A DNA stretch of 47,546 nucleotides from Muribaculaceae bacterium (GTDB taxonomy: Bacteria; Bacteroidota; Bacteroidia; Bacteroidales; Muribaculaceae): the NCBI GenBank assembly GCA_017559355.1, contig JAFYSL010000007.1, positions 1 to 47,546 on the forward strand, given 5' to 3'. Both the position numbers and the translations under genes were made by a program. Numbering within the stretch: position 1 is the stretch's first letter; every line of letters begins with the position of its first letter. The notes beneath the pieces were generated by a model. It was not told the DNA's origin and searched no databases. It saw nothing but the letters and a program-made list of their open reading frames with translations. This document shows, piece after piece, positions 46,397-47,336 of this stretch.

Positions 46397-46411
46397 CTTA
46401 GAAAACTATCA

Positions 46412-46524
46412 CGTAGTGACTGAGGTGTTCACTGCGACAAAATTGGAATCAAACTTACCAAATTGACTCGGACGAACCTCGTCGAGCCAAAGCTTCACAC
46501 GATTGTAGTTTTGGTAATTTTGAT
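46412..46524. repeat. Inverted-repeat element in the 529-bp non-coding stretch (part A)
   Basis: The largest gene-free stretch is 46397-46925. In its first part, CGTAGTGA (46412-46419) pairs with TCACTGCG (46429-46436; one G-T). Further on, 46448-46462 pairs with 46510-46524 over 15 positions with a single mismatch, enclosing an 8-bp hairpin with one bulge (46467-46486). A 70-residue open frame on the minus strand covers this part but shows no family signature. Function unknown; it may include the terminator of the infB unit. Confidence 0.55.
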
Positions 46525-46573
46525 GCGATTGCGATTTTTCATCTTTCATCTTTCCTTTTTCATCTTTAATTGT

Positions 46574-46581
46574 TACCTTTG
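46574..46581 (+). promoter_or_regulatory. -7 element before the structured region
   Basis: TACCTTTG matches TAnnTTTG exactly. The upstream region is an AT-rich pyrimidine tract without a clear TTTG. A transcript starting near 46588 would open directly with the 46592-46619 hairpin. Confidence 0.4.
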
Positions 46582-46587
46582 CAGTAA

Positions 46588-46850
46588 TCTTGTGGGTGGC
46601 AAAGTGTTGCCCTCCCCACATGAGACATATTAGTGAAAGCGTTTTCAGCTTTATCCTTTGTTAGGAAATCGCCAATTTTCAATCTGAGAAGGTAAAGCGG
46701 TCAATGACGCTCATGTGTGCCTATTTTCCACCCCATAGGCGGGGTGTCATATATAGGTATGGCGTGGGGTGGATTGGACTGTTTATTTCTCAGATGGGTG
46801 TTTGGCGATGCCTCTAACAAAATAAACCGAACGAACTCCCACGTTTTCAC
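46588..46850 (+). ncRNA. Candidate structured non-coding RNA or long structured leader (part B)
   Basis: After the -7 element at 46574, several complementary segments nest without conflict: hairpin GGG-t-GGCAA/TTGCC-ct-CCC (46594-46616); CACATGAG (46617-46624) with CTCATGTG (46710-46717); CACCCC (46729-46734) with GGGGTG (46741-46746); CGTGGG (46763-46768) with CCCACG (46838-46843); and inside that GTTTATTT (46781-46788) with AAATAAAC (46820-46827). It is visibly more GC-rich than other intergenic DNA here. It does not contain motifs of tmRNA, RNase P or SRP RNA that I know. It could equally be the 5' leader of the LRR gene, whose ATG is at 46926. Confidence 0.4.
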
Positions 46851-46925
46851 ATTTTATAAACTAAACAATCACGTTATTAACCGCCAAATTAGGGGAGGCA
46901 GGAGGCACACAAAACATTCATTTCT

Positions 46926-47336
46926 ATGAAAAAGATTTTACGTATTCCGCTACTCCTTGTAGCCCTGCTTCTATCATCAATCCCCATCTTCGCCTACGAC
47001 TTTGTGGTTGATGGAATCTATTACAATATTACCGATAAAACAGCCAAAACTGTCGCTGTTACTTATAAAGGAATCTATGCCTCTAGTTATGATAACGAAT
47101 ATACTGGCAGTGTCGTTATACTCGAAACAGTAACCTATTCTGGTACTACTTATTCTGTGACCTCGATTGGTAACTCTGCGTTCGTTAATTGCAAAAGTTT
47201 GACTGAGGTAACAATCCCTAATTCCGTAACTTCAATTGGCGAGTCTGCGTTCAGTAAATGCACTGGCTTGACTGAGGTAACTATTTCCAATTCCGTAACC
47301 TCGATTGGTTCGTCTGCATTCTCTGTTTGTATTTAG
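46926..47336 (+). CDS. Short BspA-like leucine-rich-repeat secreted protein
   Basis: A 136-residue protein with a signal peptide ([23 protein letters not shown]). A short beta region ([22 protein letters not shown]) precedes two full and one partial 23-residue LRR_5 units (consensus [23 protein letters not shown]). Family members usually run to several hundred residues with many units and a C-terminal tail; this one stops with TAG in the third unit and lacks any sorting tail. The following 210 bases show no further repeats. It is either a truncated gene or an array end left after recombination, and may not be functional. Confidence 0.75.
47157..47336 (+). repeat. 69-bp tandem LRR-coding repeat, 2.6 units
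   Basis: Units begin at 47157, 47226 and 47295. The first two are full 69-bp copies with high identity (both contain TTGACTGAGGTAAC and AATTCCGTAAC); the third breaks off after 42 bp at the stop codon. Nucleotide-level similarity suggests recent duplication. Confidence 0.8.

Follow-up and report, generated by a model that had tools for sequence, protein, structure and literature searches.

A multi-copy pseudoknotted RNA of Bacteroidales that probably acts as a cis-acting attenuator leader

Introduction

At the end of the window, by which we mean the whole 47,546-nucleotide stretch of Muribaculaceae DNA analysed here, a gap (46397-46925) separates a thioesterase-like ORF, judged as such by eye, from an LRR ORF of 136 aa. 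The question raised by this locus is whether positions 46588-46850 within the gap encode a functional RNA and, if so, what that RNA does. A first-pass annotation had pointed to a promoter element, a raised GC content, five nested stems and competing partners for some of their strands, and had proposed a regulatory RNA or a structured leader of the LRR gene.

Results

A strongly folding region behind a promoter motif

The GC content of 46588-46850 is 0.456, well above the 0.19-0.34 of the 12 other gaps that measure 80 nt or more and separate ORFs of 110 aa or longer, as the first-pass annotation had claimed. The predicted fold of this region (-102.3 kcal/mol, z -6.1) was matched by none of 200 shuffled sequences; the opposite strand folds nearly as well (z -5.6), as is expected because the element is a long inverted repeat. 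The -7 element claimed at 46574 is present as TAnnTTTG at 46574-46581, which we take to be the Bacteroidetes promoter consensus, and both partners proposed for GCTTTA, AAAGC and TAAAGC, are indeed in the sequence. The features of the window copy are listed here, with z values from the helix-level and swap tests described below.

46574..46581, + strand: -7 promoter element TAnnTTTG; the motif is upstream of most copies
46588..46623, + strand: 5′ hairpin, mostly in the window's genus; folding compared with shuffles in 27 copies
46635..46639, + strand: P1 5′ strand, partner 46844-46848; z 3.5 (0/200 simulations; control maximum 4.2)
46648..46656, + strand: B1 5′ strand GCTTTATCC, partner 46691-46698; z 2.6 (0/200), tentative
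46658..46664, + strand: H1 5′ strand TTGTTAG; tree null z 39, 71 further copies z 29.5
46665..46679, + strand: H4 hairpin, loop TCGCCAA (46669-46675); z 5.3
46683..46689, + strand: H2 5′ strand TCTGAGA; z 36, 71 further copies z 23.2
46710..46715, + strand: E1 5′ strand CTCATG, a second possible partner for the G-strand; from the swap test, window coordinates by eye
46717..46761, + strand: apical arm of the long form, with competing pairings R1, C1, C2 and C3; z 5.8, 3.3, 4.5 and 1.1
46763..46768, + strand: G-strand CGTGGG, the B3 5′ arm and also the E1 partner; B3 columns 99.1% paired
46781..46786, + strand: B4 5′ strand GTTTAT, partner 46822-46827; conserved, tree null z -0.7
46788..46794, + strand: H2 3′ strand TCTCAGA; values as for the 5′ strand
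46797..46812, + strand: H3 hairpin GGTGTTTGGCGATGCC; loop invariant, closing pair varies
46814..46820, + strand: H1 3′ strand CTAACAA; values as for the 5′ strand
46836..46843, + strand: CTCCCACG, B3 3′ arm (46838-46843), shared in part with the PK 5′ strand (46836-46840); PK z 9.8, swap z 7.9 and 11.0
46844..46857, + strand: U-rich tract after B3, interrupted here (TTTTCACATTTTAT); weak in the window copy
46883..46906, + strand: D hairpin GCC..GGC, loop holding the PK 3′ strand GGGAG (46893-46897); D z 5.4, PK z 9.8
46926..47336, + strand: downstream gene, BspA-type LRR protein of 136 aa; Pfam LRR_5 E 1.1e-18, signal-like N-terminus (heuristic)

The element is one copy of an order-wide class

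Homologues were found by DNA search in 31 of 99 genomes, the window's own counted; 176 nhmmer hits were reduced to 164 by removal of 11 partial hits and one edge hit, then to 138 unique sequences and to 137 at 95% identity. A covariance model gave matches at E <=0.001 in all 12 genomes of the window's genus, those in two of them (G002 and G011) being weak at 30-41 bits, while the richest genome holds 13 matches, 8 of which exceed 150 bits and one of which is the opposite strand of a copy. At least 119 stretches were returned by a pattern scan of named genomes. The titles of the listed stretches include Muribaculaceae, Duncaniella muris, Heminiphilus faecis, Prevotella, Xylanibacter, Butyricimonas, Odoribacter, Coprobacter, Barnesiella, Rikenellaceae and others, all Bacteroidales with the exception of one record labelled Lachnoclostridium. 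Carriers that can be cultured include Duncaniella muris DSM 103720, Butyricimonas synergistica DSM 23225 and Odoribacter lunatus DSM 112344. The copy in that record (L067 1085-1117, on a contig titled Lachnoclostridium sp.) is a typical one, and because the remaining titles are Bacteroidales names the record is probably mislabelled or contaminated. Another copy (L176 6572-6783) lies on a contig catalogued as viral in IMG/VR and is the sole stretch from viral contigs. Of 393 Bacteroidales genomes, 74 contain the signature pattern GGYGTTTGGCGATRCC, whereas a reversed control occurs once. Spread beyond the order was considered and rejected: the motif is found in 3 of 147 non-Bacteroidales genomes of the phylum, one instance having a mispaired closing pair, and these are probably chance matches. 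The element is one member of an order-wide multi-copy class and is not particular to the LRR gene of the window.

A second set of 80 loci across the order was picked by the H3 pattern alone. An H4 loop motif lay upstream in 78 of these, which entered the first test of H1 and H2; L204 (element visible, misanchored) and L248 (a chance-like match) were then dropped, and removal of duplicates of the first set (L186, L187, L201, L226 and L252) left 71 copies. Among the second-set loci L194 resembles chance and L241 resembles a variant. These 71 copies and 135 of the 137 first copies make up a unified set of 206, of which 41 are of a short form (loop-to-loop distance below 100 nt, most of the apical arm absent). 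Alignment A1 contains 87 of 93 chosen homologues and the window (88 sequences), and alignment A2 contains 110 of 118 listed downstream ORFs and the window ORF.

Covariation defines a conserved core

In a per-pair test (G-test/APC) on the 137 non-redundant copies, H1, most of H2 and the closing pair of H3 exceed every tree-simulated null value, under a null with random root states that proved too loose at helix level (control z sd 0.46). A helix-level test was therefore calibrated with 200 tree simulations, in which 120 control strand pairs gave a mean of 0.5, an sd of 1.1 and a maximum of 4.2. In this test z was 39 for H1, 36 for H2, 9.8 for PK, 5.8 for R1, 5.4 for D, 5.3 for H4 and 4.5 for C2. 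Values below about 4 we regard as weak, because control pairs reach 4.2; these include P1 (3.5), C1 (3.3) and B1 (2.6, within the spread of the 120 control pairs). Under the same tree null A7 (1.7), B3 (1.1), C3 (1.1), H3 (0.9), A2 (0.6), R2 (0.5), A6 (0.2) and B4 (-0.7) were not significant; for B3, B4, A6 and H3 this is because they are so conserved. A branch migration between B1 plus B4 and A2 plus A6 was rejected, as A2 and A6 are unsupported by the helix-level null.

The strongest signal comes from two helices, H1 (46658-46664/46814-46820) and H2 (46683-46689/46788-46794), which exceed all 200 tree-simulated alignments. Each of the seven H1 pairs has changes on both sides in A1, and four of the five P1 pairs do likewise. 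In the 78 second-set loci H1 and H2 were complementary within copies and not between them (z 29.5 and 27.8), and the 71 de-duplicated copies gave z 29.5 and 23.2, with no permutation of 300 as high; since this set was chosen by the H3 pattern, it tests H1 and H2, not H3. Over the whole of A1, scored for H1, four H2 pairs, H3, H4, the loops, B3 and P1, 91.8% of cells are paired, compared with 78.2% after shuffling and about 50% when strands are slid by one. Cells changed on both sides number 449 (152 shuffled; none of 500 shuffles as high), and pairs with both-side change number 20 (16.5 shuffled; equalled by one of 500).

H1 and H2 join two loop hairpins, H4 and H3. The H4 loop, UCGCCAA, is complementary to the H3 loop UUUGGCGAU, and both are nearly invariant. 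Complementarity holds in 99.8% of A1 cells with hardly any variation; the predicted loop-loop pairing therefore rests on complementarity, not covariation. The H3 loop is invariant, and the single significant pair of H3 is its closing pair (CG 71, UA 16, UG 1, n=88), with a statistic of 111 compared with a null maximum of 54.7.

Among the five nested stems first proposed, two recur across the homologues: 46763-46768/46838-46843 (B3), paired in 787 of 810 cells, and 46781-46788/46820-46827 (B4), paired in 1005 of 1092. Two others do not hold up in the 137 homologues, 46617-46624/46710-46717 being paired in only 473 of 994 cells and 46729-46734/46741-46746 in only 318 of 576. With the 46617 stem not conserved, the suggested coaxial stacking of the first hairpin upon it is unsupported. 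That hairpin, 46594-46602/46607-46616, folds better than shuffled sequence (mean MFE -15.2 compared with -8.1 kcal/mol) in the 27 copies whose match reaches it. Nearly all of these belong to the window's genus, and in most other genera the match begins 3′ of the hairpin. Homologues are abundant and covariation is very strong, mostly in helices that the first-pass annotation lacked: H1 and H2, which are the best supported, the complementary loops and the downstream pseudoknot PK were all absent from it. The region is a real structured RNA.

H1 and H2 change rapidly and remain paired

The number of changes per column on the tree is 41-47 in H1 and H2, compared with 16-22 in the linkers and 37 in the region after the element, the last being a comparison over 12 less well aligned columns. 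H1 and H2 stay paired despite this fast change, which is unusual for a conserved RNA. Both helices could cross-pair in only 2 of 166 same-genome pairs of copies and in 0.86% of 28,534 different-genome pairs, compared with 86% for a copy's own strands. For single helices, cross-pairing within and between genomes was 7.8% and 3.7% for H1, and 18.1% and 14.0% for H2. Same-genome copies cross-pair no less than different-genome ones, so active avoidance of cross-pairing within a genome is unsupported.

Most copies lie between a promoter motif and the start codons of diverse genes

In 178 of 204 copies the H4 loop is preceded, at a distance of 30-150 nt, by TAnnTTTG; shuffled sequences predict 16.4 such copies, and a control region gives 11 of 200. 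At the other end, a same-strand ORF lies within 300 nt of 129 of the 137 copies, and 108 of the 137 have an ATG in the interval from 10 nt before the model end to 20 nt beyond it, compared with 11/136 on the minus strand measured from the 5′ end and 152/1370 at random places in the same loci (8-11%). An ORF start lies within 400 nt of 156 of 165 long forms and of 39 of 41 short ones. Together with the homologues and the covariation, this adjacency to start codons supports the original proposal, namely an RNA that is regulatory or serves the LRR gene as a structured leader.

Downstream proteins look exported in 91 of 129 cases, compared with 135 of 400 other ORFs from these loci, by a heuristic of hydrophobicity and lipobox and with minimum lengths that differ between the two ORF groups. 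A Pfam search of 111 downstream proteins gave LRR_5 in 25; the other families among the 25 listed of 48 include FGE-sulfatase and PEGA (3 each) and DUF1643, BACON and HTH_3 (2 each). These 111 proteins share no metabolic theme by Pfam, unlike the genes behind a usual metabolite riboswitch. The LRR ORF of the window, at 136 aa, may be a short or truncated member: its relatives behind other copies range in length from several hundred aa to about 1070 aa, or extend beyond the end of their stretch. By eye, a small helix-turn-helix family, often starting M-x-IGxxI, was seen directly behind the short forms L188, L225, L253 and L254, and also behind L057, L070, L074, L087, L110, L138, L144 and L176. 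As a dedicated partner of the element this gene was rejected, since both loop motifs were upstream in none of the 16 homologues that were retrieved from 7 of 60 genomes, a single one of which contributed 8.

Overlapping and possibly competing pairings near the 3′ end

The G-strand GCGTGGG and its B3 partner CCCACGC are paired in 99.1% of A1 cells. Both-side changes occur in two of the five B3 pairs, in a handful of compensated copies. Wobble cells in B3 (U-G and G-U) number 41 and C-A cells one, which indicates an RNA transcribed from the + strand. In swap tests, in which own partners were compared with swapped ones in both sets, z was 9.6 and 10.2 for E1, 10.6 and 4.7 for B3, and 7.9 and 11.0 for PK (57 and 125 copies); these values are uncorrected for kinship among the copies and, in the case of E1, constitute the whole of its support. 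The G-strand is used by both E1 and B3, and one CCC by both B3 and PK. In 134 of 196 copies, 6 or more of the 9 nt following the B3 arm are T (T content 66%, compared with 28%), a count that leaves aside 10 of the 206 unified copies, those with no recognisable G-strand. In the window copy the U-tract is weak and interrupted, and a simple terminator scan of the window finds none. The sharing of nucleotides among E1, B3 and PK suggests a terminator/antiterminator choice, followed by a pseudoknot beside the start codon. Some of these pairings may coexist rather than switch.

A leader that does no switching, and constitutively stabilises the mRNA or aids its translation through one mostly static fold, would also be in keeping with much of this: most of the helices can be drawn together as a single pseudoknotted structure, no pathway is common to the genes served, and Bacteroidetes mRNAs depend little on Shine-Dalgarno pairing. 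We nevertheless consider such a leader rather unlikely, given the overlap of E1 with B3 in the G-strand and of B3 with PK in the CCC, and given a U-tract for which a static fold would have no use, apart from a portion that might contribute to P1. Quite unlikely, in our judgement, is a stand-alone, trans-acting small RNA gene ending at the B3 terminator, with the downstream gene as a bystander. The promoter motif, the compact conserved fold and the terminator-like end would all suit it, and Bacteroides has multi-copy small RNA families such as FopS, as described in the portion of PMC11697453 that was covered; however, start codons cluster within 20 nt of the model end, and PK and D, which covary, reach beyond the putative terminator as far as the start codon, so that a leader fits better. 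A mobile DNA element or inverted repeat with no RNA function, as multiple copies, a long imperfect inverted repeat and good folding of both strands might suggest, is scarcely credible against the + strand wobbles in B3, the promoter motif, the position beside start codons and the absence of any match at E 1e-5 among 50,697 phage and 72,556 plasmid records.

Comparison with known RNAs

A cmscan search with Rfam 15 of the window and 60 loci found no family at the gathering threshold over the element core; the only matches were tRNAs, one DUF805 and one DUF805b, none of them over the core, and when the E cutoff is relaxed to 5 a single chance snoRNA match of 8.5 bits appears for the window element. 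The DUF805 cis-regulatory RNA (RF03081; L195 1364-1432, - strand) is on the same strand as the element and just downstream of it, apparently in the same leader, and the DUF805b RNA (RF02914; L181 5-39, - strand) is on the opposite strand, upstream of the element.

By position and covariation the element qualifies as a conserved structured element in a putative 5′ mRNA leader, as riboswitches do. With riboswitches and attenuators it shares this location, a covarying pseudoknotted fold and a terminator-like stem that has strands in common with proposed alternative helices; it differs from them in the great diversity of the genes behind it, in having no known ligand, in its absence from Rfam 15 and in H1 and H2, which are hypervariable around nearly invariant complementary loops. 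Like Bacteroidales-1 (RF01693), Bacteroides-1 (RF01694) and other Bacteroidetes motifs (Weinberg et al. 2010, PMC2864571, covered in part), it is structured and restricted to an order or phylum, but no such family is matched over the element in the window or the 60 loci. The FopS/GibS small RNAs are likewise a multi-copy Bacteroidales family with an intrinsic terminator (terminator-like in our element); according to the covered part of PMC11697453, FopS is trans-acting and consists of a single-stranded 5′ stretch and a terminator hairpin, an architecture that sets it apart from a large, pseudoknotted element beside start codons. Some of the candidate structured RNAs from human microbiomes are also Bacteroidetes-specific (PMC8040213, covered in part). 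The element is not described in the covered portions of PMC8040213, PMC2864571, PMC7366714 and PMC11697453, nor was it found by term search in PMC11109978. Among the papers listed by a literature search that covered main texts, mostly of open-access papers, nothing was recognisable as the element; a prior description under another name may exist.

Discussion

Our best reading is that an attenuator leader has been reused before genes for secreted proteins, lipoproteins and BspA-type proteins. On balance we favour the view that the region is an uncatalogued cis-acting leader of this kind, consisting of a promoter, a pseudoknotted RNA, a terminator-like stem and then the gene, and that the element probably has a part in determining if the gene behind it is transcribed. 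We propose that H4 and H3 present complementary, nearly invariant loops able to kiss in three dimensions, and that the flanking sequences pair across as H1 and H2 to clamp the two halves. The G-strand would then have E1 as a possible partner on its upstream side and B3 on its downstream side. If B3 forms, the U-tract that often follows it would end transcription before the gene; if E1 forms, RNA polymerase would read on into the gene. The freed 3′ arm of B3 could then form PK with a sequence in hairpin D, immediately ahead of the start codon, which would hold B3 apart and possibly set translation. A putative signal that stabilises or undoes the fold of the kissing loops, H1 and H2 would tip the balance.

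More speculatively, the attenuator leader may belong to an order-wide, modular class of RNA switches through which gut Bacteroidales regulate a large part of their variable surface and secreted proteome. The kissing loops might then be the sensing core, and the hypervariable, self-complementary H1 and H2 might act as copy-specific address helices, such that each copy folds only with itself; we offer this as a tentative idea, which we would not yet expect to hold. As a problem in RNA folding, hairpins with complementary loops that are clamped by two pseudoknot helices changing faster than the linkers are a puzzle in their own right. Bacteroidales are a dominant order of animal guts, and to our knowledge few regulatory RNAs have been found in them. 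A large, multi-copy class of leaders before genes for BspA-type proteins, lipoproteins and other secreted proteins would give these bacteria a further level of control over their cell surface.
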